Source of the DNA: Devosia sp. RR2S18
GTDB lineage: Bacteria; Pseudomonadota; Alphaproteobacteria; Rhizobiales; Devosiaceae
Reading direction: 5' to 3'
Assembly: GCF_030177755.1 (NCBI RefSeq)
Contig: NZ_CP126539.1
Location: forward strand, 1 to 64,000
Length of the DNA: 64,000 nt
Shown here: piece by piece, positions 4,331 to 23,449 of the stretch
Numbering within the stretch: position 1 is the first letter of the stretch
Layout: the number at the start of each line of letters is the position of its first letter
The notes under the pieces: generated by a model
Seen by the model: only the letters and a program-made list of their open reading frames with translations
What the model was told of the DNA's origin: nothing
The model's database searches: none
Translations under genes and position numbers: made by a program

Positions 4331-6886
<2,556 letters not shown>

Positions 6887-6889
6887 GCG

Positions 6890-6894
6890 AAGGT
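6890..6894. repeat. Left target-site duplication of the Tn7-like element (AAGGT)
   Basis: AAGGT immediately precedes the TGTGCAG terminus. The other flank reads AAGGT at 23387-23391 if the terminal A is shared, or AGGT if the element ends in ACA at 23387. Tn7-type transposition makes 5-bp duplications, so this fits with one ambiguous base. Confidence 0.6.
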
Positions 6895-6959
6895 TGTGCA
6901 GGGACGCATAAGCTGCACTTTTACCCCGTAAGCTGCTGCGGAATCCCCCGATAAAGTGA
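6895..6959 (+). repeat. Left transposon end: terminal inverted repeat and three TnsB-like sites
   Basis: The terminal repeat starts with TGTGCAG at 6895. Three spaced, degenerate copies of a GACCCCATAANNTG-like repeat follow: 6903-6917, 6922-6936 and 6944-6959. All are in the same orientation relative to the terminus, with about 20-bp spacing. This matches the general organisation of Tn7 ends, where TnsB binds repeated 22-bp sites; the protein's actual binding here is inferred. Confidence 0.7.
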
Positions 6960-6962
6960 AGT

Positions 6963-6986
6963 AGGGCCAGCATTTATGCTGGCCCT
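6963..6986. terminator. Strong hairpin inside the left transposon end
   Basis: A perfect 10-bp inverted repeat (AGGGCCAGCA / TGCTGGCCCT) with loop TTTA. No T-run follows on the plus strand. It lies inside the transposon, between the TnsB-like sites and the helicase gene. It could block read-through from gyrB into the cargo, or serve as a structural element of the end. Confidence 0.45.
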
Positions 6987-7064
6987 GGTGACGTTAGGTC
7001 AAAGCCGCAGCTACAACCGGTCAGTCGAAAGAGCCGCGGACTGTACCCCTGAAGAGGCTGTTCA

Positions 7065-9872
7065 GTGAGCGTAGCAACGACGAGTTTAAACGAGCTCGCT
7101 CTTTGGGAGCACCAGAACAAAGCTGTCACTGCAGCGGAGGCCTATTTTAAGTCTGGTAGCAAGAAAGGCTGCCTAATCCATATGCCGACCGGGACAGGCA
7201 AGACGGGGGTAATGGCAGTGTTGGCCACAAGGCGAGCATGCATTGCACCAGTTTTGGTCGTGTGCCCCTCAGCAGCCCTCGTTGAGCAACTCCATAAACA
7301 GTTCGACGGTGGCTTCTGGAACAAAATCGGTGCCGATCACGCATGGAAGCCAGAACTTGTCACACCCATTTTGCCCAGCACAGTGGCGAAGGTGGTGAAA
7401 GCAATTGGCGAGAACGCTGGCAAACGCACCATAGTCGTTGGCACCATCCAAGCTCTTCAACAGATACATGCAGAAGGGCTAGGCGAGCAAATCCACGACT
7501 TAATTGGGACAATCATCTTCGACGAAGGGCACCGGGAACCAGCGCCCTCGTGGGCGGAGGCGATTCGAGCTTTCAATGTGCCAACCGTGCTGTTCAGCGC
7601 CACTCCGTTCCGGGGAGACCTGAAGCTATTTGATGTCGACGATGACCACATCCACTTCGTCTCCTTCGCCGAGGCGGTGGAGCAGAACCTGATTAGAGGA
7701 ATTGAAGTAGCTGAGCACTCTCTTTCCATCAATTCGGACACGTTCGCTGGACAAATCCTTGGGATCGTGGACGGCCTGGTCGCCAGTGGTCGATTCACAA
7801 AGAACAATAAGGTCATCATCCGAGCCGGGAGCGAGAGCTCCGTTCTTGAGCTACATCAGGCCTTCAACAATGCCTTGGCAGGACGTGACGATGGCGTAAT
7901 TGCGGTCCACCACAACTTCAAGTCCAGAAGTGAGCCCGGATTGCACTCCGAAGTGCCAAGCGAAATCTCACAGCGCGGCGAACGATTCCTCATCCACCAG
8001 TACATGCTTATCGAGGGGATTGACGATCCTTCCTGTGCAGTTGTTGCGCTATTCGAACCATTCAACAACACGCGCATGTTGGTTCAACAGGCTGGACGCG
8101 TCATTCGTCATCCATCCAAGGTAGGAGAACCAGCAGAGAAAGCTTATCTGATCGGTCGGCAAGGTGACGGGGTGGTGGAGGATTGGAAGAGCTTCCTCCA
8201 TTATGATGCCGAATGCGTCAAGAATGGTGGCAAGCCGTTCATCCGTAACGATGCCAAAGTGCTGAACGATCTCATCGCAGCTTTGCCGATGATGGACTAC
8301 GTCGCAGGGAAGTTCCGCCAGCGATTGGATCTAGGAAGCGATGAGATACATGAAGATCTGCGGTTCCCCCTTTCAGCGCTTGTCTATAGCGTCGAGGCTG
8401 ACATGGATTTGGCTGAGCTGCAGGAGCGCATATCAGCGGCGCTGAGCGAAGATGATCGCCATGAAGCGCTCACCGGTTCTGCACTTGGCGGGAGCTGCCG
8501 GTATCATGTCACCCTCCGGCTAAACCCCTCTCCATTTCTCGCCGGCTACCTCTTTCATGGAGCGTCGCTCGAGATCACAATCTATGCGAAGTGCGGAGGA
8601 CGGCTGTTTTTCTACGACAGTGCCGGATTGTGGATCAACGAGATCGATGGCATCGGTCCGCGGATCGACCCCAAGACACTACAGTCTCTCCTGCCGGACA
8701 GCTCTGAGAACACGATTTCCTACATAAGCGTGAAGAATACGGATCTGGGTCCGCTCGCTCTTCGGTCTCGAAGTTTAGCGGCGCGTTCTCTCCAGCGCTC
8801 CGGAGTTTTTCTGGGAGAGCACCTAAATGTGGTGACACGAGCTACCGGGTACGTTTCGAGGAAGCGCCGTGCAGTAGGTTTCGACACAGCCAGGGTTCGA
8901 GAAGGAGACGGAGCCAGGAGCACAGCGGAAGACTTCGGTAAGTGGTGTATCTCGGTAAATGACGAGTTGGACGCCGCGGCAAAAACTGCCTCTCTGTTCT
9001 CGAGGTTCGCACTGCCCACCGCGGTTCCGGCGGATACCACGCCTGTGAACATTCTCGTCGACATGCTTGAGGTACTGGGACAATTTCAAACCGCCAACGA
9101 AGGTGCCTCCGAGATCGAGACAGAAAATCTCTGTGTCGATGTGTTCCCGGATGCAAATCCAGGCGCACATGGACCTTTCCGCTTCAGCCTTGTGGTTGAT
9201 GGCAAGGCACATGACGTATGGATCGAGTGGAACAAGAAGAAGCGGAAGTACTGGCTCACGTCACCCGGATTGAGTAGGTACAAATCCAGGGACAATGAAA
9301 AAATCTCACTGACGCGGCGGCTGAATCAGCAACAGCCCTTCAGGATCATTACTTCGGACATGTCGCACGCCTATGTTTCGGGCGCTTTCTACGCTCTTGA
9401 TCTGAACTTGGCAGATCCAAAGGGAGCTGGTGGCATGGTGTTGGATCTGATCAAGCCCATAACTGGGTTGAGCGCTATCACATCAGAAAAGGGGCCAGTG
9501 AGGGGGGGCAACTTTTATGATTGGGAGGATAACTCCCTCTTCAGCTTCATCGATAAAGCTTTAAATCCTTCACGCGGCCCAGCAGTACTGGGAGCTCCCT
9601 TCCCTGCGCTGGTCTGCGATGATCTCAACGAGGAAGTCGGCGACTTCTTGGCCGTCGATGACGACCCTGCGAACCCGCGGGTAGTCTTTGTAGTAGCTAA
9701 GTGGAAGGACGGAAACCCAGGAGTTTCGGCATCCGCATTTTATGACGTCTGTGCGCAGGGTGTGAAGAACCTGGCCTACTTAAAGAGTGACGGAACTCCT
9801 GGTCGTGTCCCGGGACGTGGTGTAACTGAGCTGGTCAAGCCGCTCGCGAGCGCGCCATTACGAGCGCCGTAG
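7065..9872 (+). CDS. SF2 DEAD/DEAH-type helicase, 3' end replaced by an IS256-family insertion
   Basis: Superfamily 2 helicase/translocase with a restriction-enzyme-like motor. It has Walker A MPTGTGKTG (K46), motif II DEGH (D153), motif III SAT in LFSATPF, and motif VI QQAGRVIRH near residue 345. A long region of unknown function follows. Near the end, CDDLNEE-x2-DFLAVD then VVFVVAKWK resembles the D-x(n)-ExK layout of PD-(D/E)XK nucleases, but this is only a pattern match. The GTG start at 7065 has GAAGAGG upstream. The last 23 codons after 9800 come from the left end of the IS256 element; the true 3' end lies at 11233-11565 in the same frame. Codon choice looks less GC-biased than the host genes, suggesting foreign origin. 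A phage-defence role is inferred from type and location. Confidence 0.85.
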   Translation: MSVATTSLNELALWEHQNKAVTAAEAYFKSGSKKGCLIHMPTGTGKTGVMAVLATRRACIAPVLVVCPSAALVEQLHKQFDGGFWNKIGADHAWKPELVTPILPSTVAKVVKAIGENAGKRTIVVGTIQALQQIHAEGLGEQIHDLIGTIIFDEGHREPAPSWAEAIRAFNVPTVLFSATPFRGDLKLFDVDDDHIHFVSFAEAVEQNLIRGIEVAEHSLSINSDTFAGQILGIVDGLVASGRFTKNNKVIIRAGSESSVLELHQAFNNALAGRDDGVIAVHHNFKSRSEPGLHSEVPSEISQRGERFLIHQYMLIEGIDDPSCAVVALFEPFNNTRMLVQQAGRVIRHPSKVGEPAEKAYLIGRQGDGVVEDWKSFLHYDAECVKNGGKPFIRNDAKVLNDLIAALPMMDYVAGKFRQRLDLGSDEIHEDLRFPLSALVYSVEADMDLAELQERISAALSEDDRHEALTGSALGGSCRYHVTLRLNPSPFLAGYLFHGASLEITIYAKCGGRLFFYDSAGLWINEIDGIGPRIDPKTLQSLLPDSSENTISYISVKNTDLGPLALRSRSLAARSLQRSGVFLGEHLNVVTRATGYVSRKRRAVGFDTARVREGDGARSTAEDFGKWCISVNDELDAAAKTASLFSRFALPTAVPADTTPVNILVDMLEVLGQFQTANEGASEIETENLCVDVFPDANPGAHGPFRFSLVVDGKAHDVWIEWNKKKRKYWLTSPGLSRYKSRDNEKISLTRRLNQQQPFRIITSDMSHAYVSGAFYALDLNLADPKGAGGMVLDLIKPITGLSAITSEKGPVRGGNFYDWEDNSLFSFIDKALNPSRGPAVLGAPFPALVCDDLNEEVGDFLAVDDDPANPRVVFVVAKWKDGNPGVSASAFYDVCAQGVKNLAYLKSDGTPGRVPGRGVTELVKPLASAPLRAP
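9793..9800. repeat. Left target duplication of the IS256 element (GAACTCCT)
   Basis: Exact 8-bp direct repeat with 11225-11232, immediately flanking the inverted repeats. It lies within the helicase coding sequence and ends on a codon boundary. Confidence 0.92.
9801..9830 (+). repeat. IS256 left inverted repeat
   Basis: Thirty-base terminal repeat. Its mate is 11195-11224 on the other strand; 24 of 30 positions match by my reading, including a 15-base identical inner block. It is read through in frame by the truncated helicase gene. Confidence 0.88.
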
Positions 9873-9954
9873 CGAGCGAGCGGCTGGGTGGTCATCGACG
9901 GATTTCCGGTAAGGTCTGGTTGCTTACCCCAACCCTGCACCTGAAGGACCACCG

Positions 9955-11157
9955 ATGACCGACTCGATGATGAACCTGCGCACGCTGGTAGAGAAGACCC
10001 CCGACGCCGATATTCTGCGCGAGATGATTGGCTTTGCTGCTGAACGGTTGATGGAGCTGGAGGTTAGCGCTGCCACCGGCGCCGCTTATGGCGAGAAGAG
10101 CACTGAGCGGCGGGTCCAGCGCAATGGCTACCGCGAACGGGACTGGGAGACACGAGCCGGCACAGTCGAGCTGCGCATCCCCAAGCTGCGCAAGGGCAGC
10201 TACTTCCCTGGCTTTCTTGAGCCGCGCCGGATGGCGGAGAAGGCGCTGACGGCAGTGATCCAAGAAGCCTACATCCAAGGCATTTCCACCCGCTCGGTAG
10301 ATGACCTGGTCAAGGCCATGGGCATGAGCGGCATCTCCAAAAGCCAGGTGAGCCGGCTATGCGAGGAGATCGACGGTAAGGTTAAAGCGTTCCTGGACCG
10401 ACCGATCGAGGGCGATTGGCCCTATCTGTGGATCGACGCCACCTACCTCAAGGTGCGCCGGGGTGGCCGCATTGTCTCGGTGGCTGCCATCATGGCTATC
10501 GGCGTCAACGCCGATGGTAGACGCGAGGTGCTGGGCATGGAGATCGGCACCTCGGAAGCCGAGGCGATCTGGACCGAGTTCCTGCGCAAGCTGACCCGCC
10601 GCGGCCTACGAGGCGTGAAGCTGGTCATCTCCGATGCTCATGAAGGCATCAAGGCGGCTGTCACCAAGGTCCTTTGTGCAACCTGGCAACGCTGCCGGGT
10701 TCACTTCATGCGCAACGTCCTTGCTCATGCTGGCAAGAGCGGTCGCCGGGTGGCCAGCGCCTTTATCGCTACAGCCTTCGCCCAGGAGACCCCTGAGGCC
10801 GCAAGTATCCAATGGCGCGCCGTTGCCGACCAGATCCGCACTCGCGTGCCCAAGCTCGCCACCATCATGGATGAGGCCGAGCACGACGTCCTCGCCTATA
10901 TGAGCTTCCCCAAGGAGCATCGGGCCAAGCTTCACTCGAACAACCCGATAGAACGGGTCAATGGCGAGGTGAAGCGCCGGACCGAGGTGGTGGGCATCTT
11001 CCCCAACGAGGATGCCATCGTCCGGCTCGTGGGCGCCATCCTGCTCGAGCAAAACGATGAGTGGGCTGTGCAGCGCGCCAGATACATGTCGCTGGAATCC
11101 GTTGCCCATTTGAGCGATGATCCCCTCGTCAGCCTGCCGGCAGTCCCCGCACGCTGA
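9955..11157 (+). CDS. IS256-family (mutator-type) transposase
   Basis: DDE transposase that catalyses movement of the surrounding element. At 400 aa it is full length for the family. The first catalytic Asp is in the [11 protein letters not shown] motif, the second in [10 protein letters not shown], and the Glu lies in the C-terminal [15 protein letters not shown] region. The [11 protein letters not shown] signature typical of IS256 transposases follows the second Asp ([13 protein letters not shown]). No frameshift or stop is seen, so the element may be active. The ATG at 9955 is preceded by GAAGGACCACC. Confidence 0.95.
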
Positions 11158-11194
11158 CCAACCCGGCCAAGCCGGATATGCGTGGAGGCCCTGC

Positions 11195-11224
11195 CTCAGT
11201 TACACCACGCCGAAGGACACGATC
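11195..11224 (-). repeat. IS256 right inverted repeat
   Basis: Right terminus of the IS256 element; the inner 15 bases are the exact complement of the left repeat. The 8-bp target duplication GAACTCCT follows at 11225-11232. Confidence 0.88.
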
Positions 11225-11565
11225 GAACTCCTCTACCTGGTTCGCCCACTCGCTTCGATCGGCCGTGGACCATGAGCCGGGGAAAGGGAGCAACCAAGGT
11301 CACAGACACCATCGCCCGAAGACGCGCCGGCCCTACATCAATCGCTTTTCGGCGGCTTCTGGAGCGTGTTCGCACCATTCCCTCAGCTGAACGATCTATC
11401 TGGCTCGTGTGTTCAGGGGGAATGCTGTCAAGAAAAAGCTTAGAAGCAGAGTTCAAGGCCAAGCCACCAAAGGCGCATGTGCTTCAGTTTTATCACTTGG
11501 TGCTATCCGCCTATTCAGCTTGCCAATCGGTTGGTGTGCAGCTGAAAATTTTCTGCGCCGAGTGA
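11225..11565 (+). pseudogene. Severed 3' end of the helicase gene
   Basis: The right duplication copy (11225-11232) is followed by 110 codons in exact frame with the helicase up to 9800, ending in TGA at 11563-11565. Without the IS the protein would be about 1,022 aa. This tail contains a basic stretch and ends with a hydrophobic segment (SAYSACQSVGVQLKIFCAE). A Met inside the IS end (11182) could start translation of a chimera, but there is no reason to expect a functional product. The reconstruction rests on the duplicated 8 bp and frame continuity and is independent of any homology search. Confidence 0.85.
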
Positions 11566-11935
11566 TCGAACTTGCCGAGCACCTGGAGACCTCAAGTTCG
11601 ACATCTGCTCTGATTCTGTGGCTGTTGACTCGACTTTCCAGGTTCGCTATTTGTTCACCATGACCACGCTGATGACTATACGCAAACGCGAACTCCTACA
11701 GGCGGCGCCCACCTGCAGCCGCTCGGATCGCGTTGTCCTTCAGCGTTCCGGAACCCAGCTCTAGCTGCGGTTTTGCATCGAAGGACACCATCACGGTTCC
11801 TTCCATGCTCCTCCCCGACCAAGACATTGCCGGCGAAGCTGACCCCGACAAGCAAAAGCGTCGGTCGCGGGTTCGACTCTTCACGCCTGCTCGCCTCCTC
11901 TTCGGCCGAATAGACCATCGACTATGGGTCAAACG
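11566..11935. other. Residual non-coding stretch between helicase and IS66 element
   Basis: About 370 bases inside the transposon with no gene I can support. The short frames on both strands have composition typical of chance translation. It may be leftover cargo or regulatory DNA of the neighbouring protease, separated by the IS66 insertion. Confidence 0.4.
11928..11935. repeat. Left target duplication of the IS66 element (GTCAAACG)
   Basis: Exact 8-bp direct repeat with 14570-14577. Eight bases is the normal duplication length for IS66 elements. Confidence 0.9.
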
Positions 11936-12019
11936 GTAAGCGGTGTTCCCGCCCCACCTTCCGTTCTTTTGTCAGCCATGAGATTCCGCACGGATTGAAG
12001 TTGGTGCGGGAGGTTCTCC

Positions 12020-12412
12020 ATGGACGCTCCATTGGAGTTTCTCACAAGTGGCGGTAGGCGCCGCCGCAACCGGCAATGGCCCGATGATGAGAAGGCTCGG
12101 ATTGTCGCCGAGACACTTCGACCTGGGACCACGGTGGGCGAGGTCGCGCTGCGGCATGGTCTGAAGGCCAACCATGTCTCCTCGTGGCGGACGATGGCTA
12201 GAAACGGGAAGCTGGTGCTACCGGCGCCAAAGGACCAGATGGAGTTCGCGACGTTGATGGTCGCTCCAGTCGTTGAGGATGTAACGGCGGCGGAACCAGT
12301 GGCGGCGGTCGGGCCGGAGATCGTGCTGGGATCGGTGGTCATCCGGCTGGAGCCAGGTGCCTCCGCGCGCCGGATTGCTTCGGTCGTTCGTGCACTGACG
12401 GCGATCACATGA
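12020..12412 (+). CDS. tnpA: IS66 accessory protein TnpA
   Basis: First gene of the IS66 operon, 130 aa. It has a helix-turn-helix of the transposase_8 type (WPDDEKARIVAETL, then a VALRHGLKANHVSSWR recognition helix). In the IS66 family this protein is needed with TnpB and TnpC for transposition. The ATG at 12020 follows GGGAGGTTCTCC. Its stop overlaps the tnpB start by 4 bases, consistent with translational coupling. Confidence 0.92.
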   Translation: MDAPLEFLTSGGRRRRNRQWPDDEKARIVAETLRPGTTVGEVALRHGLKANHVSSWRTMARNGKLVLPAPKDQMEFATLMVAPVVEDVTAAEPVAAVGPEIVLGSVVIRLEPGASARRIASVVRALTAIT

Positions 12413-12762
12413 TCTTCCCCTCGAACCGGGTGCGGATCATGGTAGCCACCAAGCCGATCGACTTCCGCAAAGGTCACGACAGCCTGGCTGCGCTGGTCAA
12501 GAACGTGTTGCACGAGGACCCGTTCACCGGCACGGTCTTCGTGTTCCGTGCTCGCAAAAGCGATCGGCTGAAGTTGCTCTACTGGGATGGCACGGGTCTC
12601 GTCATGGCCTACAAGCGCCTCGAAGAGCACAACTTCAGCTGGCCTGCGGTGAAGGACGGCCTGATGACGTTGAGCCACGCGCAGTTCGAGGCGCTGTTCT
12701 CTGGGCTCGACTGGCGGCGGGTTCGGGCGGTAGAAGCGCGGGCACCAGAAGCGGTCGAATAA
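12409..12762 (+). CDS. tnpB: IS66 accessory protein TnpB
   Basis: Second IS66 gene, 117 aa. It shows the IS66 Orf2 pattern: the KPIDFRKGHDSLAALV region, then the FVFRARKSDRLKLLYWDGTGLVMAYKRLE core split by a short link. The length is normal. It begins inside the tnpA stop (ATGA overlap). Its exact biochemical role is unknown in the family, but it is required for efficient transposition. Confidence 0.93.
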   Translation: MIFPSNRVRIMVATKPIDFRKGHDSLAALVKNVLHEDPFTGTVFVFRARKSDRLKLLYWDGTGLVMAYKRLEEHNFSWPAVKDGLMTLSHAQFEALFSGLDWRRVRAVEARAPEAVE

Positions 12763-12831
12763 CTGCGGCAGGATGACTCAGGGCTGGTCTTTTTGCGGGA
12801 TCGGCGGCGCCTGATCTGGTAGATTCTGGCC

Positions 12832-14373
12832 ATGCTCGATGCCGCCGAACTTCCCGATGACATTGCTGCCCTCAAGGCGATGCTGATCGCAGCGGAGGTG
12901 CGTGATCAGCGCAAGGACGAGCGGATCGCTCAACTGGAAAAGCTGGTTGCCGCGTTCAAGCAGGCGGCCTTCGGGCGTCGATCGGAAAAGAGCGACCCGG
13001 ACCAGTTCGAGCTGGCGCTGGAGGATCTGGAAATGGCAATCGCGGTTGTCCAGGCCGCGGAGGACGCCGAGGACCGGCTGGCCCGACGTCCGGCCAAGCC
13101 GCGCAGTACCAATCGTGGTTCACTCCCCAAACACCTGCCGCGGATCGAAGAGATCATCGAACCCGAAAGCCTGGTCTGTGGCTGTGGCGGCGGGCTGCAC
13201 TGCATCGGCGAGGACGTCTCCGAGCGGCTCGACGTGATCCCGGCCCAGTTCCGCGTGATCGTGACCCGTCGCCCCAAATATGCCTGCCGGTCCTGCACCG
13301 ACGGCGTGGTGCAGGCGCCGGCGCCCGCTCGGCTGATCCCTGGCGGGCTGCCGACCGAGGCCACGGTCGCCCATGTCCTGGTCAGCAAGTATGCGGACCA
13401 CCTCCCGCTCTATCGCCAGGCGCAGATCTTCAGTCGTCAGGGTGTTGATCTGGACCGCTCAACGCTGGCCGACTGGGTTGGTCGGGCCGCCTTCGAGTTG
13501 CGTCCGGTCTATGCTGCCCTAATGGCGGATCTGAAGCGCTCATCCAAGCTGTTCATGGATGAAACTCGCGCGCCAGTGCTCGATCCCGGTGCCCCAAAAC
13601 CAAGACCGGATACTTCTGGGCCCTGGCCCGCGATGATCGTCCCTGGAATGGCACCGCACCACCCGGTGTTGCCTTCACCTATGCCCCGGGCCGAGGTGGT
13701 CTTCATGCCGAACAGATATTGCAGGGCTTTGGCGGCATCCTGCAGGTGGATGGCTATGCCGGCTACAACCGACTGATCGCGCCCGCCGCGTCGGCGCGGG
13801 TATCCAACTCGCCTATTGCTGGGCCCATGCCCGTCGCAAGCTGATCGAGATCACGCGCGCCGGCACCGCCCCGATTGCGGAAGGGGTGTGCGGCTCATCG
13901 GCGAGCTCTATACCATCGAAGCCGAGATCCGAGGCCTGGGCCCCGAACAGCGTCTCGCTGCTCGCCAGGAACGATCCGGACCAGCCGTCGCCCGGACAAA
14001 GGCTTGGCTCGACCTTCATCGCGCCCGCGTCTCCGCGAAAGCGCCGCTTGGGGAGGCCTTGAGCTACATCGCCAAATACTGGTCGGGGTTAGTGCTGTTC
14101 CTCACCGATGGCCGCATCGAGCTCGACAACAATACCGTTGAGCGGACCATCCGCCCGATCGCGCTGAACCGGAAGAACGCGCTCTTCGCCGGCCATGATG
14201 CCGGTGCTGAAAACTGGGCTGTCATCGCCTCGTTGATCGAAACCTGCAAGCTCAACGCTGTCGATCCCTATGCCTGGCTGGCCGCAACACTCCACGCCAT
14301 CATCGCCGACTACAAGCAGAGCCGCATCAACGATCTGCTGCCGTGGAACTATGCTGCAAAGCTGGGCGATTGA
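12832..14373 (+). pseudogene. tnpC: IS66 transposase TnpC, broken by frameshifts
   Basis: The DDE transposase of IS66. An intact start encodes a leucine-rich coiled region and a zinc-finger-like CGCGGG segment. The frame then moves. Codons run in frame 1 to about 13590, in frame 0 for the KTKTGYFWALARDDR region to about 13785, in frame 2 for the AYCWAHARRKLIE region to about 13888, and back in frame 1 through TDGRIELDNNTVERTIRP to the end. Each step equals loss of one base. The full family protein is recovered only by combining three frames. Three similar one-base losses in 300 bases could be decay or sequencing error in GC-rich runs. Confidence 0.88.
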
Positions 14374-14569
14374 CGCTCTTGGCTCTGGCGGCATAATCGG
14401 AAACCACCAGCAACGAGGCGCCCTCCCAATCAGTTCGAGACCGACAGCGAGGCGCGCGATGCTGCCTTAGCCGCTCTAAACAGCGAAGGAGCCATCGCCT
14501 TCATGCGCGGCAACAACGTCGTTCAGTTCCCTCGACCCTGAGCCCAAGTGGCCGCAGAACACCGCTTAC

Positions 14570-14703: not shown

Positions 14704-16677
14704 ATGGCTGACAACGACAACGACGAATACAACGACCACGTCCTCGAGCAACTCGAGGCAATGGAGACATCCCTGATCCGGTCCAGGCCAAACCGCATGG
14801 CGACACGCATCCTGCCGGAGCTGATGCTCAACCGGGCGATGACGCTGAAGCAGCAGCTGCAGGCAAGCCGTGACACCACCATCAGCGTGGTGATCGAGGC
14901 CCCCAGCCGTGCATGGGTGGAGCCGCTCGCCACCGCCGCCAAGCGCCTGGGCAACTGGAAGTTCGTGCTGACCTGCACCGAACCCGAGAAGGCCCGCTAT
15001 CGTAACGAGCTGCCATCCGACCAGGCCATCCAGACCCTCGCCGCCGGTGGGCGCACGCTCGGAATCTCACAGGCGCCGCATGCCTATCTGCCGCCGGCAT
15101 TGGTCGCATCCGCGGATCTCTATTTGGTTATCAAGAACCCCGACGACGAGCTTATCCGTGCGGCCATCAAGCTGGTAACCGGACGCCAACCCCGGAGCAT
15201 GCCCGAAGGAATCGCCGATGGTCTGGACTATGCCGACATCTGTGCCGCTTTGCGTCTGGGCAGTTCGGCGAAGGCTTGCGTCGAACGTCTGGTGGCCGCT
15301 GCCCAAGCCAAGACCGCTGCAGACCCGAATCTTGCGGAAATTCCGGAACTGGAAAAGTTGTTCGGGTATGGGCCTGCTATGGCCTGGGCGCAGGGTGTTG
15401 TAGCCGACCTTGCCGCCTGGCGTCGGGGAGAGCTGGACTTCTCCGCCATTGAGCGCACCGTGGTTCTGGCGTCGCCTCCGGGCATGGGCAAGAGCACGCT
15501 GATCCGCAGCCTGGCCAAGACCGCCCGCATCCCGCTGATCGCCACTTCCATGAGCGAATGGTTCGCCAACGGCCCCGGCTATCTGGACAGCGTCATCAAG
15601 CAGATCGACCAGACCTTCGCGCAGGCCGCAGCTGTGGCACCGAGCATCGTGTTCATCGATGAATGCGAGGGAATCCCGAACCGCGGCAACCTCGATGGGG
15701 ATCGAAGCGCTGCCTGGTGGATGCCAGTAGTCGGACACCTGCTGCTCAAGCTCGACAGTGCTGCCTCGGGATTGAGCTCGAAGGTGATCGTCGTAGGCGC
15801 CACCAACCACCCCGAGAAGCTCGACCCGGCATTGGTGCGGCCGGGGCGCCTGTCCAAGATCATCCACATCGAACCGCCTGACGCGGACGCCTTGAACGGC
15901 ATTCTCCACCAGCACCTCGGTCCCGATCTGGCCGGGGAAGATCTTCGCCACGTCGCCATGCTGGGTGTCGGCTCCACCGGTGCGGATGTCACCGGATGGG
16001 TGAAGGGTGCCCGCAGCGCGGCGCGCCAGGAGAACCGCCCTCTCACCATCGACGATTTGATCGCCCAGGTTGCGCCGCCCGACAACCGCTCCCCGGCTTT
16101 GCTTCGCCGTATTGCCATCCATGAGGCGGCCCATGCGGTGGTCGGCCATGTCCTTCAGGAGGGCTCCGTCACCAGCGTGTCCATCATCCCCCGTCAGGGG
16201 CAGAATGGCGGCCACACCATGGTCGAGCTCACCGAAGACGCAGTGCTGTCCCGGGAGGACATCGAGAAGCTGGCCACCATCAATCTTGCGGGCCGCTGTG
16301 GCGAGCAGGTTGTTCTGGGTTCGATCAGCACCGGTGCCGGGGGTGGCGAAGAGAGTGACCTGGCCAAGGCGACCTACTTTCTGGCGCTGATCCATACCTC
16401 GTTCGGCATGGGCGGACACCTGCTCCACCGGGCTGCGCCGCAGAACGTCACCCAGCTTCTGTCTTTCGATCCGGTGCTCACAAAGACGGTGGAGGCGGAC
16501 CTGCAGCGGGTCTATGCCAGCAGCCTGCAGATCGTCGAAGCCAACCGTATGGTTGTGGAGGCAGTGGCAGAAGCCCTGCTGCAGTTCCGTCACCTCAGCG
16601 GACCGCAGTTTGCCGCGATTTTCCGCGGTGTCTCCAAGACTAACCGCCAGGTCAAGGGAGACCGCCGCCATGGATGA
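14704..16677 (+). CDS. Soluble AAA+ ATPase with FtsH-type M41 zinc protease domain
   Basis: Energy-dependent protease. Residues 1 to about 240 form an N-terminal domain I do not recognise. The AAA+ module has Walker A PPGMGKST (K263), Walker B SIVFIDECEG (D319, E320) and the second-region segment NHPEKLDPALVRPGRL, where the arginine finger is expected. The M41 domain has HEAAH (H473, E474, H477) and an Asp in EESDLAKAT (D552) at the spacing of the third zinc ligand in FtsH. No membrane segment is visible, unlike FtsH itself, so it should act in the cytosol. It overlaps the next small gene by 8 bases, suggesting a functional pair. As transposon cargo it may be a defence or stress system; its substrates cannot be deduced. 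Confidence 0.88.
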   Translation: MADNDNDEYNDHVLEQLEAMETSLIRSRPNRMATRILPELMLNRAMTLKQQLQASRDTTISVVIEAPSRAWVEPLATAAKRLGNWKFVLTCTEPEKARYRNELPSDQAIQTLAAGGRTLGISQAPHAYLPPALVASADLYLVIKNPDDELIRAAIKLVTGRQPRSMPEGIADGLDYADICAALRLGSSAKACVERLVAAAQAKTAADPNLAEIPELEKLFGYGPAMAWAQGVVADLAAWRRGELDFSAIERTVVLASPPGMGKSTLIRSLAKTARIPLIATSMSEWFANGPGYLDSVIKQIDQTFAQAAAVAPSIVFIDECEGIPNRGNLDGDRSAAWWMPVVGHLLLKLDSAASGLSSKVIVVGATNHPEKLDPALVRPGRLSKIIHIEPPDADALNGILHQHLGPDLAGEDLRHVAMLGVGSTGADVTGWVKGARSAARQENRPLTIDDLIAQVAPPDNRSPALLRRIAIHEAAHAVVGHVLQEGSVTSVSIIPRQGQNGGHTMVELTEDAVLSREDIEKLATINLAGRCGEQVVLGSISTGAGGGEESDLAKATYFLALIHTSFGMGGHLLHRAAPQNVTQLLSFDPVLTKTVEADLQRVYASSLQIVEANRMVVEAVAEALLQFRHLSGPQFAAIFRGVSKTNRQVKGDRRHG

Positions 16678-16912
16678 GTTGCTGATCCGCGTCCTCACCC
16701 GGCTGCTTCGCGTCCATGACGAATTCGGAGAAGCCGGCTTCGAGGATGCCGCCCACCGTGCGCTGGTCGCCATCGCGCTGACAGCCAAGTGCGAGGCCGA
16801 GCGGAAGGCGGGTACTACCGAGCCTTACGATCCGGGTCAGCGGGTGGTGCGCTTTCCGTTGAACAAGCGGCGGCGCAGCCCCTGGCAGCAAAGCGATGAC
16901 GATGTATCGTGA
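16670..16912 (+). CDS. Small protein coupled to the AAA-M41 protease
   Basis: An 80-aa protein starting at ATG 16670, eight bases before the protease gene ends, so translation is probably coupled. The N-terminal half looks helical and acidic (MDELLIRVLTRLLRVHDEFG). The C-terminal tail is basic then acidic (NKRRRSPWQQSDDDVS). I do not recognise a family. It may be an adaptor, inhibitor or substrate of the protease, an idea based only on gene overlap. Nothing indicates a membrane or secreted location. Confidence 0.7.
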   Translation: MDELLIRVLTRLLRVHDEFGEAGFEDAAHRALVAIALTAKCEAERKAGTTEPYDPGQRVVRFPLNKRRRSPWQQSDDDVS

Positions 16913-17441
16913 ACAAGCCGGTACTCGGCTCGCAGCAATTGTTAAGCTCCCGGTAAGGGAGCTTAACCCATGGCGAGCGATCGTTTCATGGCAAGGATTG
17001 CATCCCCCAGCGCAGTGTGCTGTTTGCGCCGACCATGTTCAGCAACCTTGCCCACCTATGTCTATGCCCCTCGGTGGGGCGCCGCTCCGAGCTTTAGAGC
17101 CGGGCCGGTCGTTGCTGACCGTCGACCAAAACCCAGGTCGACACCCCAACCCACCTTTCCCCGTGTGTCCAACGCTCCCCTTCTTCGTCGGGAGTGTGTT
17201 CGTTTCCCCGTCTTTGCCTACTTGGAAGCTCGTCCAGACCTGGAGTCTCAAGCCGTGATCCATCTCTGCCCTCTCCTGCTAGCCACCGAGAAAATAGCCA
17301 AACGCGGTCCGCTAGGACACTGGCTATCGCGCTCGCCCGTCCGGCCGATACCGGCCCGCTTCGAGCTGCCCCCCTTCTTCGAGGATTACGGTTCCTGCAG
17401 CACGTCTGCCACGGGACCACCGGCTTCAAGGATACTTCAAG
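16913..17441. other. 529-base non-coding gap before the tns operon
   Basis: No credible gene on either strand. It holds a perfect 11-bp hairpin at 16941-16967. A second inverted repeat (ATAGCCA at 17294 / TGGCTAT at 17323) encloses a short GCGG/CCGC stem. The plus strand from about 17130 to 17260 is rich in pyrimidines. I looked for CRISPR repeats and found none. The gap probably carries the tns promoter and regulatory sites and could hold a small RNA, which cannot be shown from sequence alone. Confidence 0.45.
16941..16967. terminator. Perfect 11-bp hairpin after the protease operon
   Basis: Inverted repeat GTTAAGCTCCC / GGGAGCTTAAC around the loop GGTAA, 28 bases after the small gene's stop. 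No T-run follows on either strand, so it may be a Rho-dependent end, an RNA-stability element or an operator. Confidence 0.45.
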
Positions 17442-18116
17442 ATGCCTCCCGTGACTCGTGCCCCCGCGGTCGTCCGCGCCAACCGTCGAAACGGCACACC
17501 TGACCAGCTTCGCGCCCACCATGGCTACTTCTACTCATGGAAGCTTGACGCCCTGATCCCTTACCGAGGTCTGCTGGCCTTCGACTACCTGACCCTGACC
17601 GAAGCAGATCCCCGCGTTATTCAAATCGATACTTCCCTGGAGTCCGTCCAATGGACTGACGGCACCCAGTGGAAGGATTACCGCGCAAGATATGGTGTTG
17701 TCCGCCGGACACGCCGCGGAGCTGTCCCCCACACCGTGGAAGTCGAGGTACTCAACAGCAAGACCTTGACGGAACAGTATCGGACTTATTCCCGCATCAA
17801 GCGGGCGTTCAAGGAAGAAGGGCGGCAACTGCTGATCTTCACCGAGAAGCAGATCCGCATCGAGCCCCGCCTCACCAACTCAAAGCTGATCCTGACCCAT
17901 GCGGGTAACGGCATCTGCAAGGAAGAGGATCTCGCCCTGGTGCGCCAGGTCGCCGCCGGAACTGCCCCTTTCTCACTTAACCAGCTGGTGGAGAATTGCG
18001 TGCTTACCTACCCCCGTGCCTACGGGGCGGTCTTGAACCTGGTTGCTTCTGGCGAGCTCGTTTTCCCGATGGGGAAGGTCTTTGACGGGGATAGCCCGGT
18101 CATGAGGAGGATCTAG
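17442..18116 (+). CDS. tnsA: TnsA-like endonuclease-fold subunit with altered catalytic positions
   Basis: First gene of the transposition operon, 224 aa. In Tn7, TnsA cuts the 5' strands at the transposon ends so that movement is cut-and-paste. Here the fold-level pattern is present: an FDYLTLTEADPRV segment (47-59), a DYRARYGVV strand (79-87) and a TVEVEVLNSK strand (98-107). In canonical TnsA the catalytic residues lie in E...L-LLE-DP, PDFLV and EVK. The Asp and Lys positions appear replaced here. The enzyme may use different residues or be inactive, which would favour replicative transposition. The assignment rests on operon position and pattern. tnsB starts 2 bases after its stop. Confidence 0.72.
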   Translation: MPPVTRAPAVVRANRRNGTPDQLRAHHGYFYSWKLDALIPYRGLLAFDYLTLTEADPRVIQIDTSLESVQWTDGTQWKDYRARYGVVRRTRRGAVPHTVEVEVLNSKTLTEQYRTYSRIKRAFKEEGRQLLIFTEKQIRIEPRLTNSKLILTHAGNGICKEEDLALVRQVAAGTAPFSLNQLVENCVLTYPRAYGAVLNLVASGELVFPMGKVFDGDSPVMRRI

Positions 18117-18118
18117 CG

Positions 18119-20464
18119 ATGGACGGGTTCAACTCGGATCGTGACCTCGACGACAGGGACGATGATGTTTACCTCCGCCCCGGGGACGGTATTGAACTGG
18201 CAGGCAAGCAGTACGTGATGGAGAGCCGGGTCGCCAAGCCCCGAGGCTTTGTCTTCTCCGATCCAGCCGCGCCTGGCGTCCAGCACGTTATGAGCAATCG
18301 CGACATCAAGAGCTGGCACCGCTCCGGCCGGCTCAGCTTCATCGCGGCGTCAGAGGTGGGATTGCCGATCGGCGTACAGGAATCCCTCCGCCGCACAATG
18401 CGCGCCTTCAAGCCCGAAGAGCGGGACGAGATTTTCCGCCGGCTGCGCTACTGCCTCGCCATTTCGGAACTGCCAGCTGACTTCGGAAGGTCGAAGGCGA
18501 CCCTGCAGCCGGTCTGTGACGCAGTGGCAGCCAAGCGGAACGATACCTGTCCGCATCATTGGTCCACGGTGCTGCGCTGGTGGCGCACCTGGGTGCGGGC
18601 GGGGAAGGATCCCCGGGCCCTTTGTCCATCCACGCGGAGAAAGGGCAACCGCAACCGGAGGCTTGATGATTACAAGCTCCAGGCCATGAAGAGGGCAATT
18701 CGGGAGCACTGGAACGTTCGGCACAGACCCTCGATGACGACGGCCTACAAGGCTGCGGTCCAGCTGTGTGTTGACTACCTCGGGGGCCGGGAGGCTGCAG
18801 AGGCCCATGAGAATCCGTTCCCTTCGTTGAAGGCCTTCCGCCGCGAGTGCGCAAGACAAGACCGTACGACCACGCTCGCCACCCGCTTCGGTCCGGAAGC
18901 CGCTCGGCAGGCCATGCATCCGGTGGGAATGGGACCGGACGTGCGCCTGCCGTACGAGCGGGTTGAGGCCGACTTCAAGTATCTGCGTATCATGGTGGTG
19001 GACGAGAAGACCCGGCTGCCACTGGGGACGCCTTACCTCATGGCCGGCTTCGACTGCTATTCAGGTTGCATCGCTGGATTTGATATCGGTTTCGACCCGC
19101 CCTCCTATGTGTCTGCTGCGCGGTGTCTCAAGCACATCGTAGAAGCCAAGGACGTGGATCAATTTGGCAAGGACGAGGACGGTGATTCATTGATCCGTCG
19201 GTCTTATCCGCTCAACGGTGTGCCGCAGCAGTTCTTTCTCGACCAGGACGCCGTTTTCCACTCCCGCTCTTTCGAGATGTCCGCCAAGGCCATTCGTTGC
19301 CACGTGAACTATGTGCCCGCTGGCGAGGCCTGGAAGAAGGGGCGCATCGAACGGTTCTGGCGCACCGTGCAGCAGTGCTTCCTCGATATGTTCCCGGGTA
19401 ATGTTCTTCGGGTGGGGGACGGACCGGGCCGGGATTACAATCCTGTAGATGATGCCGTGCTGACACTCAGCCAGCTGCGTCTGCTGATCACCAAGGCAAT
19501 CGTGGACGTCTACCACGAGAGCATCGATGAATGGACTGGCAAGCGTCACATCGACCTGTGGCGGGAAGCCGTCGAAAAGCATCCGCCTCGCCCCGTGCGT
19601 GACCACCAGAGCCTCATCGAACTTGTTGGCGCCTATGAGGAGCGGGTGGCCGAGCGCCGGGGCATCCGCCTGTTCGGCTTGAGGTACAATTCGCCGTTGC
19701 TTGCGGAGTATAGATCCAACTTCTCGAAGGATCCCACTGTGGTCGTCCGTTACGATCCACAGGACATCTCCAGGGTCTGGCTGATCGACGAGGACCGCGG
19801 CCTGTCACTGGAGGTGCCATGCACCCGTGCCGACTATGCGGAGGGGCTGTCGCTCCACCAGCACAGGGTGATCCGCCGCCGGGCCGCCGACAGGAGCCCC
19901 GAGGGCCGGCTGCGCATGAAGCAGCTTTGGATCGCCAAGGCAGAGCTCTTTCGGCTGGGTGAAAAGATGCTGCAGCGGGACGCCTCCAGGCGGACCAGAA
20001 AGCGTATCGCTCAGTTCCTGGGTGTCGGTCGAGAGCTGATCGACGAAATGTCCAGGCGGGTCACCGATGAGAAGGCCAGTGCCGAGCCCCTCGATTACGA
20101 GGACGGTTACGAAGACCCTGGTATGGCCGAACAGAGCGCTGTTGAGGACAGCTATGGCGACCTCGACGATGTGGCGGTTGAGGACCCCGAAGATGAGGCC
20201 GCAGCGCTTCAGGACGAGGCGTACGTGGATTCTCTCCGGGAGGCGAGCAAGGACAAGGGCAACGAGGCTGCCCCCTCCCGCCGCAAGGCAACAGTAATTG
20301 CCTCTGATCCAGTTGCTGCCGAACCTCACTCCGATGAAGTGGGTAGCGCTGAGCAGCGAGATGATCCTGCATCGGAAGAGGAGCCGTCATCTGCCGTCCC
20401 TGACGAGACTGGTGATGGGGATGACGACGGCGATGATGACGACATGGTGACCTATGACGACTGA
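18119..20464 (+). CDS. tnsB: TnsB/TniA-like DDE transposase
   Basis: The 3'-strand-cleaving and joining transposase of Tn7-like elements, 781 aa. The retroviral-integrase fold core has D285 (VEADFKYL), D375 (FFLDQDAVFHS) and E411 (KGRIERFWRT), giving the D-35-E spacing of active members. An N-terminal region with helix-turn-helix character should bind the end repeats. A Mu-type beta-barrel follows the catalytic core (the region around YNSPLLAEYR and VRYDPQDISRVWLID). The last 120 residues are strongly acidic (runs of D and E, ending GDDDGDDDDMVTYDD), unusual in length. This tail is the likely contact for TnsC. It overlaps tnsC by 11 bases. Confidence 0.92.
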   Translation: MDGFNSDRDLDDRDDDVYLRPGDGIELAGKQYVMESRVAKPRGFVFSDPAAPGVQHVMSNRDIKSWHRSGRLSFIAASEVGLPIGVQESLRRTMRAFKPEERDEIFRRLRYCLAISELPADFGRSKATLQPVCDAVAAKRNDTCPHHWSTVLRWWRTWVRAGKDPRALCPSTRRKGNRNRRLDDYKLQAMKRAIREHWNVRHRPSMTTAYKAAVQLCVDYLGGREAAEAHENPFPSLKAFRRECARQDRTTTLATRFGPEAARQAMHPVGMGPDVRLPYERVEADFKYLRIMVVDEKTRLPLGTPYLMAGFDCYSGCIAGFDIGFDPPSYVSAARCLKHIVEAKDVDQFGKDEDGDSLIRRSYPLNGVPQQFFLDQDAVFHSRSFEMSAKAIRCHVNYVPAGEAWKKGRIERFWRTVQQCFLDMFPGNVLRVGDGPGRDYNPVDDAVLTLSQLRLLITKAIVDVYHESIDEWTGKRHIDLWREAVEKHPPRPVRDHQSLIELVGAYEERVAERRGIRLFGLRYNSPLLAEYRSNFSKDPTVVVRYDPQDISRVWLIDEDRGLSLEVPCTRADYAEGLSLHQHRVIRRRAADRSPEGRLRMKQLWIAKAELFRLGEKMLQRDASRRTRKRIAQFLGVGRELIDEMSRRVTDEKASAEPLDYEDGYEDPGMAEQSAVEDSYGDLDDVAVEDPEDEAAALQDEAYVDSLREASKDKGNEAAPSRRKATVIASDPVAAEPHSDEVGSAEQRDDPASEEEPSSAVPDETGDGDDDGDDDDMVTYDD

Positions 20465-21503
20465 CTTCGATTTCCTGCGCGACGAGGACGGTTACTTCCC
20501 AGAGGACATTGCCGATCTCATCATCAACCCGGATCCGGTGAGGCGGGCTCACCTGGTGAAGGTCGGCCGTATGGTGATTAAGCACAAGCAGTACAAGCGG
20601 TCGTGGAAGTGGTTGGAGAAGACCTTGCAGGAGAGCGGGACTGGCCGCGAGGCTGTGGCCGGACTCTTCTGCGGAGTGTCCGGCGTCGGGAAGAGCACCA
20701 TTTTGCGTCAGTTCACCACCAAGTACGGCGGGCCATTTCCTACGCGTACCACGAACGTTCGTCCGGTAATCCGCATTTCCACCCCTGCCAATCCCAAGCT
20801 CGAGAACATTTGGATGACCATGCTCGTCGCGCTGTCGTCTCCGGATTTGATCTGCTCGGATGCCGAAGCCATGCGGCTCAGCATCCAGACTCAGCTCCAG
20901 AAGCAGTCTGTGAAAATGATCATCTTTGATGAATTCACGCACGTCGTGGAAGACCGCAGCGAGAAGTTTACCAAGCGCGCGGTACGGGGCCTCAAGGATT
21001 TGCTCAGTGAAAATCACTGTCAGCTGATCTTCGCAGGAACGCTTGAGTTGGCGGGGCTGGACGGGCTCTATGACCAAGTGCGCCGGCGTAATTCCGGAAC
21101 CGTCGAGCTCAGGCCGATCGACTGGGTGGAAGATAACGAAGACTGGATGACCACGTTGGAGTGGATCCAAACTGAGTTGCCGCTGAAGTGTGAACCCGGG
21201 CTCCCCAGCGTAGAAATTGCCCGGAAGATGCATCGTGCCTCCAATGGAATTTTGGATCACGTGATGAAGCTGCTCTTCCGTGCCACTGCCTACGCATATG
21301 ACGGCGACAAAGAGGTAATTACTGAGACGACCCTCGCAGACGCATTCGAGCACCTGCGGAGGGGGAGCAAGCAAGCTAATCCTTTCGGTAGGCCTTCCCT
21401 CCCACCCTTGAAGCCACCCAAGCCAAAGGCGAAGAACGAGGATAGCGAAGTTACCGGCCTGTCCAGGAGGGCTAGGCAGGACACGGATACCTTTTCCAAG
21501 TGA
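20454..21503 (+). CDS. tnsC: TnsC/TniB-like AAA+ transposition regulator
   Basis: ATP-dependent matchmaker between the target-selecting TniQ and the TnsB transposase, 349 aa. Walker A is GVSGVGKST (K80), Walker B is KMIIFDEFTHV (D159, E160), and the sensor region LIFAGTLELAGL follows; all are typical of the TniB/TnsC family. The C-terminal segment is rich in Pro, Lys and Arg. It starts within tnsB and ends at a 4-base overlap with tniQ, so all three should be made from one message. The ring-forming and target-immunity roles are known for the family, not shown here. Confidence 0.92.
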   Translation: MTTDFDFLRDEDGYFPEDIADLIINPDPVRRAHLVKVGRMVIKHKQYKRSWKWLEKTLQESGTGREAVAGLFCGVSGVGKSTILRQFTTKYGGPFPTRTTNVRPVIRISTPANPKLENIWMTMLVALSSPDLICSDAEAMRLSIQTQLQKQSVKMIIFDEFTHVVEDRSEKFTKRAVRGLKDLLSENHCQLIFAGTLELAGLDGLYDQVRRRNSGTVELRPIDWVEDNEDWMTTLEWIQTELPLKCEPGLPSVEIARKMHRASNGILDHVMKLLFRATAYAYDGDKEVITETTLADAFEHLRRGSKQANPFGRPSLPPLKPPKPKAKNEDSEVTGLSRRARQDTDTFSK

Positions 21504-23188
21504 CCGAGACGACGATCGGGCGGCCCAGGCGCGACCCGCTGGCTCAGTTTCAGGTCCGGCTGCCGCACATCTTCGATGAGCCGGCTCATGGATTGCTTCT
21601 TAGGACAGCAGGAGAGAACGGGTGTATCCTCTATCCGGCAATGTTCAAGCGGTTCGGAGTAACGCAGGCCCGGCTCGCCGGTAACCTTGATGTCTCCGAA
21701 GTGGCATACGCATGCCGCGCCGATGTCGAGGCGGTAACGTTTGCTTCGGCAATTGCAGACTCAAAGACCGTAGGGCTTATGGGGCAAGTGCTCCATCAGG
21801 ATCACTACAGCGTTCAGTTCAGACGGTGGTGCCCTGATTGCCTGAAGGAGCATGCCTATCACCGGGCGTGGTGGGACGTTGTGTCGGTATCCTCATGCCC
21901 CGAGCACGGGACGCTTCTCGTCTGGGACTGCGGATGCCGGCGAAAGCTGTTTTGGCAAGCTCAATCTCTCACGCGATGCAAGCGTGGGCACGACCTCTGT
22001 TCTGTCGAGGCTCCCGCCAGGAAGCACCGGGGAAATGCCGACCGCTACATTGTGGAGCGCTTGCTTCATGGCCAGTCCGGCGCCGCGCCTTTGCTGGATG
22101 GTCTCCCCCTCGGTGATGCCATTGTTGCGATGCAAAGAGTCGGGCGAGCATCACTGAACGAGAATGCAAGGATTAGTCGCGATCGCGACAAGGTAGGTAG
22201 CCCCGAATTCCTTGATGAAGGTCACCGCATCCTGTCCACCTTTCCGGACGGCTTCGTAGAGCTCCTGGATTCGTTGCTCGCACGACAGGATCGACGCAAG
22301 GGCAAGTGGGGGATGGGCCGCGCTTACGGAACGTTCCCGGATTGGATCTCCAAACTCCCGCAGGAACCTTTCGGAAATGCACTGAGATCAGTGCTGCGCG
22401 AGCACGCCTCGGGCAAGCTGCTGGTCAAGTCCGGCTCTCGCATCGGTGGCGAGCCGATCGTGGTGAACGGATACTCGTTCGAAGAGGCAGAGGAACTTTG
22501 CGGCGTCTCTTATGCCAGGTTGCGCAGGATTCTGGCTGACCGGGATCTGCTGCCGCCCGCTATCAAAAAGGGCAAGCCGGTCCGCCTCGACAAGCAGGTG
22601 ATCGACGCCCTTGCCGATGAGCTCCGGGACGGCATGACCCTGGAAGCAGCAGCTGCAGAGCTGGGGGTCGAGCGTGATGCCATTCTCGGGCTGATGAAAG
22701 CGGGATTGCTTCGGCCCCTAGTGTCAGCCGACCGCACCAAGCGGCTGAACACCTACACCTTTGCCCGGAACACAGGGGCGGAGTTCCTTCATCCCCTGCT
22801 GGAGATCGGCGTGGAACCCGGTAACCCAGGGGACCCGATGACGCCCTTGCCGGTAGCTGCACAGAGGGCCCGCACGACGGTCGGCAACGCGGTGGCCATG
22901 GTGCTGGATCGCAGGCTTGCCATCCGTTCGATCGATAGCGGTGCGGTTGGACTGCAACAATTATTGGTCTCGCCGCGGGAACTGGCCAAAGTCTTGGTGG
23001 CTGCGCGCACCCCCGGTTTGACCCAGATGGAAGCCGCGGCTCGGCTGGGCTTGCCCTATAATTGCTTGTCTGACCTGGAGCGAAGGGGCGTGCTCAACGT
23101 AGACCGCAGTGGCTCTGTGCCGTTCAGAGGCGCTAAGGGCCATGTAGTTCTCCGAGGGCAAGCGATCCAAGCGCCTCCCATTTTGTAG
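21500..23188 (+). CDS. tniQ: TniQ/TnsD-type target-selection protein
   Basis: Target selector of the transposon, 562 aa. The N-terminal TniQ domain starts RLPHIFDEPAHGLLLR. It is followed by Cys/His clusters (CPDC at 111-114, SCPEHGTLLVWDCGC, then CKRGHDL), which fit zinc fingers. The C-terminal half holds several predicted helix-turn-helix-like segments (around FEEAEELCGVSYARLRRIL, LEAAAAELGVERDAI and TQMEAAARLGLPYNCLSDL). This is the long, TnsD-like layout with a sequence-specific DNA-binding half, not the short TniQ of CRISPR-associated elements. It starts with GTG overlapping the tnsC stop. Its position next to an insertion just after gyrB suggests that it recognises the gyrB 3' end. Confidence 0.9.
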   Translation: MTETTIGRPRRDPLAQFQVRLPHIFDEPAHGLLLRTAGENGCILYPAMFKRFGVTQARLAGNLDVSEVAYACRADVEAVTFASAIADSKTVGLMGQVLHQDHYSVQFRRWCPDCLKEHAYHRAWWDVVSVSSCPEHGTLLVWDCGCRRKLFWQAQSLTRCKRGHDLCSVEAPARKHRGNADRYIVERLLHGQSGAAPLLDGLPLGDAIVAMQRVGRASLNENARISRDRDKVGSPEFLDEGHRILSTFPDGFVELLDSLLARQDRRKGKWGMGRAYGTFPDWISKLPQEPFGNALRSVLREHASGKLLVKSGSRIGGEPIVVNGYSFEEAEELCGVSYARLRRILADRDLLPPAIKKGKPVRLDKQVIDALADELRDGMTLEAAAAELGVERDAILGLMKAGLLRPLVSADRTKRLNTYTFARNTGAEFLHPLLEIGVEPGNPGDPMTPLPVAAQRARTTVGNAVAMVLDRRLAIRSIDSGAVGLQQLLVSPRELAKVLVAARTPGLTQMEAAARLGLPYNCLSDLERRGVLNVDRSGSVPFRGAKGHVVLRGQAIQAPPIL

Positions 23189-23260
23189 CGTTGACTCTCT
23201 CGTTGGCTCCGGCGACAGATCAAGAAGTGCAATTTTCGGCGATTCCATCCACCTCGCCAA

Positions 23261-23387
23261 CTTATGGGGTAATTCTGGGTCGCAGATTCATCTTATGAGG
23301 GTGCAACGTGAAATTTATGGGGTCAACGAAACTCGCGGAACGCCGCTAAACTGCAGTGGGGCGACTCAGGTTATGGGTCGCTGCACA
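23261..23387 (-). repeat. Right transposon end: terminal inverted repeat and four TnsB-like sites
   Basis: The terminus ends CTGCACA at 23387 and mirrors the left end. Four degenerate repeats occur: CTTATGGGGTAATT (23261-23274), TCTTATGAGGGTGCAAC (23291-23307), TTTATGGGGTCAAC (23314-23327) and GGTTATGGGTCGC (23369-23381). On the minus strand they read as ACCCCATAA-type sites in the same orientation as those of the left end. Confidence 0.72.
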
Positions 23388-23396
23388 AGGTCGTGT

Positions 23397-23414: not shown

Positions 23415-23449
23415 GCCAGGCCCTGCGGTCACAGCCAGAAGACCACGCC

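Follow-up and report, generated by a model that had tools for sequence, protein, structure and literature searches.

The first 64,000 nucleotides of contig NZ_CP126539.1 from Devosia sp. RR2S18 (hereafter the window) carry an element that is Tn7-like in the broad sense and whose left end begins 8 bp past the TAA stop codon of gyrB. Related termini lie 6 to 8 bp past the gyrB stop codon in three Devosia genomes, such that gyrB is a recurrent site for these elements. We consider it likely that they are transposons that insert in one orientation a few bases beyond gyrB under the direction of TniQ, and that relatives have been retargeted to other genes. Specifically, a long TniQ/TnsD protein would recognise the conserved 3′ end of the gyrB coding sequence and would recruit the TnsC ATPase; TnsB would then link the ends of the element, with a stagger of 4 bp, to the DNA immediately beyond, so that gyrB stays intact. 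Relatives with diverged TniQ proteins would home to other conserved gene ends, namely that of smc and probably that of a gapR-type gene.

Boundaries and transposition genes of the element

The element spans positions 6895-23387 (16,493 bp). Its left terminus, TGTGCAGGGACGCATAA, begins at 6895 and its right terminus, which reads TGTGCAGCGACCCATAA as the reverse complement, stops at 23387; the two are alike at 17 of 20 bases. These ends were identified by a scan for TGT..ACA pairs (left candidates at 4000-17400, right candidates at 23100-27000), in which a pair had to agree at 11 or more of 20 terminal bases and at 6 or more of the first 8. The 6895/23387 pair is the sole pair with a 4-bp flanking repeat that passes this filter, and we therefore take the target duplication to be AGGT. 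A 5-bp duplication was rejected, as zero pairs with a repeat of that length passed. A preliminary description of this DNA had already placed the ends, the transposition genes and the adjacency to gyrB as they are given here. Its flanking repeat of AAGGT needs correction, because one A was counted twice.

TGT..ACA termini with repeat arrays at both ends are a feature of the Tn7-like family, and the CATAA-type repeats of both ends are the presumed TnsB binding sites (Table 1). The right side of the element holds four consecutive genes between 17442 and 23188, which encode a TnsA-like protein, TnsB, TnsC and TniQ, the first being recognised by its fold. TnsB scores above cut-off for PF09299 (Mu-type C-terminal domain), matches TnsB entries of the PDB at values down to 4.5e-55, and has DDE positions D285, D375 and E411 (assigned by eye). 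TnsC scores above cut-off for PF05621 and matches VchTnsC at 7e-24. TniQ reaches 41.8 bits against a cut-off of 27 for PF06527 and is matched by profile to I-F3 TniQ structures; its structure model is weak (predicted local distance difference test, pLDDT, 66). For TnsB, TnsC and TniQ alike, the closest solved relatives are I-F3 proteins. TnsB, TnsC, TniQ and the TnsA fold, as expected of a Tn7-like element, are all present.

Two usual features of the family, a 5-bp target duplication and a catalytic TnsA, were not found. The TnsA-like protein keeps the TnsA fold, apparently without the usual catalytic residues E, D and K (positions in Tn7 numbering). Among ten rows of the TnsA-like family aligned to a canonical-looking TnsA of Enterovirga (L015), the E column holds A in eight, S in one and E in one, and the D and K columns hold neither D nor K in any row; the alignment is 23% identical, such that gap placement is uncertain. 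Because the catalytic residues are apparently missing, the protein suggests a replicative, cointegrate-like route, in which transposition may run without normal second-strand cutting of the donor. The tnsA-side end of Tn7 faces its target gene, whereas in the window element the cargo-side end faces gyrB.

The element had also been called complete, and this holds in that both ends are bounded. Its function is nevertheless doubtful, as copies of IS256 and IS66 interrupt the cargo and TniQ is about 50 amino acids short. Specifically, the window TniQ has 562 amino acids, whereas its four nearest relatives have 601-616 amino acids and about 50 more C-terminal residues, and because these residues are missing the window TniQ may be inactive.

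Related termini recur beyond gyrB

Devosia riboflavina (G078, contig NZ_JQGC01000003.1) carries a related element whose terminus, TGTGCATTGAACCATAA, stands exactly 8 bp past the gyrB stop codon. Its TnsA, TnsB, TnsC and TniQ proteins are 44, 55, 46 and 40% identical to those of the window element. In genome G030, a terminus as in D. riboflavina lies 6 bp past gyrB, and what follows is a remnant in which only the tail of tniQ remains. A pattern in which 4-14 free bases separate the end of gyrB from the terminus matches exactly these three of 75 Devosia genomes, each time at gyrB; a reversed control gives 0 matches in the same 75 genomes. In a sample of the class, the pattern matches 1 of 385 genomes, the window genome itself.

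The PBP1a gene is the usual Devosia neighbour downstream of gyrB and marks the host flank of the window element. Eight other Devosia genomes have it on the downstream side of gyrB, and D. riboflavina has it on the far side of the element; two further Devosia genomes give short PBP1a matches (about 2 kb of flank was compared for most genomes). This conservation indirectly supports an empty gyrB site, the comparison that the preliminary description had proposed.

Could the three genomes share this site by descent from one old insertion that entered near gyrB by chance? All three gyrB cases fall within one genus, and in the class sample the window genome alone fits the pattern, as such descent would predict. 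We nonetheless find this explanation quite unlikely. The window and D. riboflavina elements are strongly diverged in TnsB (55% identity) and TniQ (40%), none of three cargo queries from the window (helicase, IS256, AAA/M41) matches the D. riboflavina locus, and the distances from the gyrB stop codon differ (8, 8 and 6 bp). Moreover, 41 of 43 gyrB ends that were read directly lack a full terminus, and common descent would need many losses.

One of these 41 ends, in genome G029 (L129), has TGTGCATGTGCAT 5 bp past the gyrB stop codon, with the CATAA part missing. This is possibly a worn element end.

Relatives at other gene ends

A relative in genome G033 occupies a different site. This element runs from C54:340592 to C54:300337 (40,256 bp), and its TnsB and TniQ are 53% and 31% identical (BLAST) to those of the window. 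It splits the stop codon of smc, and gyrB lies on another contig. When its flanks are joined, the TAG stop codon of smc is restored, and the joined flanks align with the window genome at smc and the atp operon region. The flanking repeat is TCTA, 4 bp, and a 5-bp duplication was rejected here also. Both elements with two resolved ends therefore have 4-bp duplications.

The preliminary description had held that relatives with the same tns genes at unrelated sites would speak against a gyrB-keyed element, and the G033 relative is in part such a case. We regard it as narrowing rather than refuting the gyrB claim because its TniQ is the more distant protein, as protein-directed retargeting predicts. 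From the architecture of TniQ, and from the greater divergence of the G033 TniQ relative to its TnsB, we infer that TniQ would be the reader of the target site.

A third site is represented in Bosea sp. 47.2.35, where a terminus, TGTGCAGCAACCCATAA, stands 9 bp past a GapR-family gene (PF10073, 2e-34). The Bosea element is eroded to a piece of tnsC and a tniQ (34% identical to that of the window), and its right end was sought and not found. This element probably lies at the gapR-type gene, where we infer the tie between the terminus and the tniQ locus. The elements of TniQ relatives thus adjoin gyrB in D. riboflavina, but lie at smc in G033 and probably at gapR in Bosea, a comparison that the preliminary description had proposed. 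Together, the five placed left ends adjoin the 3′ ends of topology or segregation genes: gyrB three times, smc once and, probably, gapR once. The ends of four distant TniQ loci (L012, L014, L015 and L017) gave no convincing terminus pair.

The ends of gyrB and smc are hereby added to the sites used by Tn7-like elements. Related TniQ proteins with different targets offer natural material for studying how TniQ/TnsD reads DNA, and a rule held to apply throughout the Tn7-like family is put to the test by the 4-bp duplications and the degenerate TnsA.

Inverted fragments of target genes

Three of the five placed left ends contain an inverted fragment of the gene that they adjoin. The gyrB fragments of D. 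riboflavina and G030 are 138 and 140 bp long and lie 85 and 82 bp from the terminus, and the smc fragment of G033 is 84 bp long and lies 96 bp from the terminus. Their alignment scores are 119, 183 and 133, respectively, versus shuffled maxima of 36, 27 and 36 (200 shuffles per end). A further left end, in genome G034, has a gyrB fragment 106 bp in from its terminus, such that in all four ends the fragment follows closely on the TnsB-type repeats, at a distance of 82-106 bp from the terminus. No target-gene fragment is detectable in the left ends of the window element (gyrB score 18 versus a shuffled maximum of 29) and the Bosea element (25 versus 32), and none of gyrB above shuffles was found in the right end of the window element. 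The inner left end of the window element matches only itself in the 75 Devosia genomes.

The fragments apparently stem from the genes of other species. Among 51 gyrB rows (two partial, from 60 genomes with a gyrB match), the D. riboflavina fragment is 88.7% identical to gyrB of G032 versus 76.1% to its own, the G030 fragment is 90.0% identical to gyrB of G005 and G001 versus 85.7% to its own, and the G034 fragment is 94.5% identical to gyrB of G001 versus 89.7% to its own. A tree of 146 columns that unites the three gyrB fragments is rejected (approximately unbiased test, AU p = 0.014). Most nodes of the tree are weak, only this test was taken from it, and the rejection is weakened by the D. 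riboflavina fragment, whose branch is long and which bears indels. Because the joined tree is rejected, the gyrB fragments would appear to go back to more than one event, either capture or overwriting by a resident gene. The smc fragment, compared with smc of G033 and of the window genome only, differs from the G033 gene in 7 of its 84 bases, which alter a single amino acid and include all three bases of one serine codon; such differences are as expected of a piece of another species' working gene. The fragments look as if earlier insertions beside the same gene, in other hosts, had left them behind, and they would therefore support homing.

How might the fragments arise? They would most simply be explained as by-products of gap repair at the left end, in which template switching by the new strand copies part of the adjoining gene, with later homogenisation to the resident copy also possible. 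We rate this explanation as on balance probable, and it is compatible with TniQ-directed insertion. It accommodates the inverted orientation of the fragments, their position just inside the TnsB-type repeats, and sequences that point to other hosts. It also requires that fragments were captured or overwritten repeatedly and that their limits in gyrB came out similar, and none was seen in the window element.

Alternatively, the inverted copy might aid target choice through DNA homology or RNA, such that TniQ would not act alone. The match of each fragment to the adjoining gene in D. riboflavina, G030 and G033, far above shuffles, is consistent with this. Even so, we judge such a role very unlikely. 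The window element sits at gyrB without a detectable fragment, as the Bosea element sits at its own site; the fragments lie at varying distances from the insertion point (72 and 68 bp for gyrB in D. riboflavina and G030 versus 123 bp for smc); G034 has a gyrB fragment yet is away from gyrB; and the window element has no CRISPR-like repeats. A more elaborate version appears unlikely as well, namely that these elements form a branch in which the inverted copy is renewed from successive hosts and serves, in DNA or RNA form, to select or mark the target, in combination with a TnsA-fold protein that does not cut and with topology genes (gyrB, smc, gapR) as targets. The fragments would document former hosts at the sequence level and may also play a part in homing.

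The G034 left end lies on contig C89 (L088:2299-4294), where an AbiE-like gene pair, named by eye, precedes the gyrB fragment and an array of repeats like that of a left end; farther out there is a hisI-like gene, and no tns gene was matched at this locus.

Points against TniQ-directed insertion at gyrB

Several observations weigh against the view that TniQ directs these elements to gyrB. The family is rare: relatives of TnsC occur in 3 of 75 Devosia genomes, close TnsB proteins in 2 of 397 genomes sampled from the order (a sample without D. riboflavina), and the TnsA-like protein in 1 of 385 genomes of the class sample. The case for gyrB targeting comes from two element lineages, that of the window and that of D. 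riboflavina and G030, and the G033 member of the family sits at smc, away from gyrB. The sixth left end, that of G034 contig C89, adjoins neither gyrB nor the 3′ end of a recognised gene despite its gyrB fragment. The D. riboflavina element is flanked by an 8-bp direct repeat, ACTGCGGC, but no TGT-type terminus was seen at its right end. No near-identical strain with an empty site was seen. To these is added the shortened and perhaps inactive TniQ of the window.

In viral contigs, neither TniQ nor the TnsA-like protein has a match. In plasmids, TniQ matches occur in 7 records, all at less than 60% identity, and all TnsB matches are likewise below 60%.

Comparison with known transposons

Tn7 combines TnsABC with TnsD and uses a site at glmS (PMC11406308, in part). 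The window element resembles Tn7 in its TnsA fold, DDE transposase TnsB, AAA+ ATPase TnsC and TniQ/TnsD, in the several repeats at each end, and in insertion just beyond the 3′ end of an essential gene. It differs in the gene concerned, in a duplication of 4 rather than 5 bp, in the apparent loss of the usual catalytic residues of TnsA, and in that no TnsE was found among the element's open reading frames (ORFs) scanned with Pfam.

The same source, again in part, describes a Tn7017-type I-F3 CRISPR-associated transposon (CAST) with a TniQ that targets parE. Both systems have a TniQ-directed site, a proposed one in the case of the window element, at the gene for the B subunit of a type II topoisomerase. 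The genes differ (gyrB versus parE), and the window element has one TniQ and no recognised cas gene or CRISPR-like repeat. Tn6022 targets comM with TniQ and TnsF (sections of PMC10293859) and shares with the window element a fixed chromosomal site and a dedicated selector. Unlike the window element, which lies outside the gene, Tn6022 inserts inside comM with TnsF. No further selector gene appeared in the Pfam scan of the window element, in which no search was aimed at TnsF. Members of the Tn5053 family, which have TniQ and a related transposase and ATPase, target res sites, resolve cointegrates by a resolvase and lack TnsA (PMC11406308, in part).

It had first been suggested that gyrB would be an uncommon site. 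The open literature searched did not turn it up as an attachment site of Tn7-like elements, and a listing is possible in supplementary tables and subscription papers, which lay outside that scope. The gene is missing from the portions of main text covered in PMC10293859 and PMC8649781. Tn7-like elements, gyrB and TniQ occur together in PMC12452197, where gyrB is a marker gene, and in PMC11915867. The literature searched holds no report of Devosia with a Tn7-like element. Among the matches listed in that search there was no sign of smc as a Tn7-like site, of GapR with a Tn7-like element or TniQ, or of the phrase for a 4-bp duplication.

Cargo and other features

Table 1. Positions of the window element, its genes and its flanks.
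Feature	Position	Strand	Basis
gyrB, gene adjoining the element	4433-6886	+	NF011501 / TIGR01059 above cut-off
Target repeat AGGT, left copy	6891-6894	.	End scan
Left end: terminus and three CATAA-type repeats	6895-6960	+	Repeat scan
Left-end CATAA-type repeats, presumed TnsB sites	6901-6913, 6921-6933, 6944-6956
Helicase-like part of PDC-S71 candidate defence gene, broken by IS256	7065-9872	+	Pfam, PADLOC
IS256-family transposase inside the cargo	9955-11157	+	Pfam
Tail of the same PDC-S71 gene	11182-11565	+	PADLOC
IS66-family genes; transposase in two ORFs (12832-13776, 13816-14373)	12020-14373	+
AAA+ / M41 FtsH-like peptidase gene, HEAAH at residue 473	14704-16677	+
tnsA-like, 224 aa, Tn7 TnsA fold, no Pfam match	17442-18116	+	Fold only
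tnsB, DDE transposase	18119-20464	+	Pfam, sequence motifs
tnsC, AAA+ ATPase, Walker A GVSGVGKS	20454-21503	+	Pfam, sequence motif
tniQ/tnsD: TniQ domain bearing a zinc-finger-type motif, followed by helix-turn-helix units	21500-23188	+	Pfam, sequence
Right end: terminus and four repeats	23260-23387	-	Repeat scan
Right-end repeats, CATAA-type	23369-23381, 23313-23325, 23291-23303, 23260-23272
Target repeat AGGT, right copy	23388-23391	.	End scan
PBP1a gene, host flank	25053-27713	+

An RNA-guided (CAST) reading of the window element was rejected, as neither a cas effector nor an array was recognised. Specifically, 15 ORFs of the element were compared with Pfam, 10 of them also with PADLOC, and gave no Cas effector; the cargo helicase gave just weak matches to helicases of DinG/Cas3 type. 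CRISPR-like repeats were absent from the element, in which there are no direct repeats of at least 21 nt within 200 bp.

The AAA+/M41 peptidase gene also occurs upstream of tnsA in the G033 element (L024:7858-9831), where the protein is 43% identical and both have 657 amino acids. The gene may be cargo, or else a transposition helper. A 36% relative of the peptidase is found near TnsB in Rhizobium sp. 18055 (L014).

Two minor observations concern the ends. The right flank begins, 2 bp past AGGT (23394-23402), with TGTGCAGCG, nine bases that equal the element's own right terminus read inward and that may be chance or a trace of another end. An inverted repeat with perfect 11-bp arms, AGGGCCAGCAT and ATGCTGGCCCT, and a 2-nt loop borders the left end on its inner side (6963-6986); by eye, a terminator-like hairpin occurs at a similar place in the left ends of D. 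riboflavina and G030.

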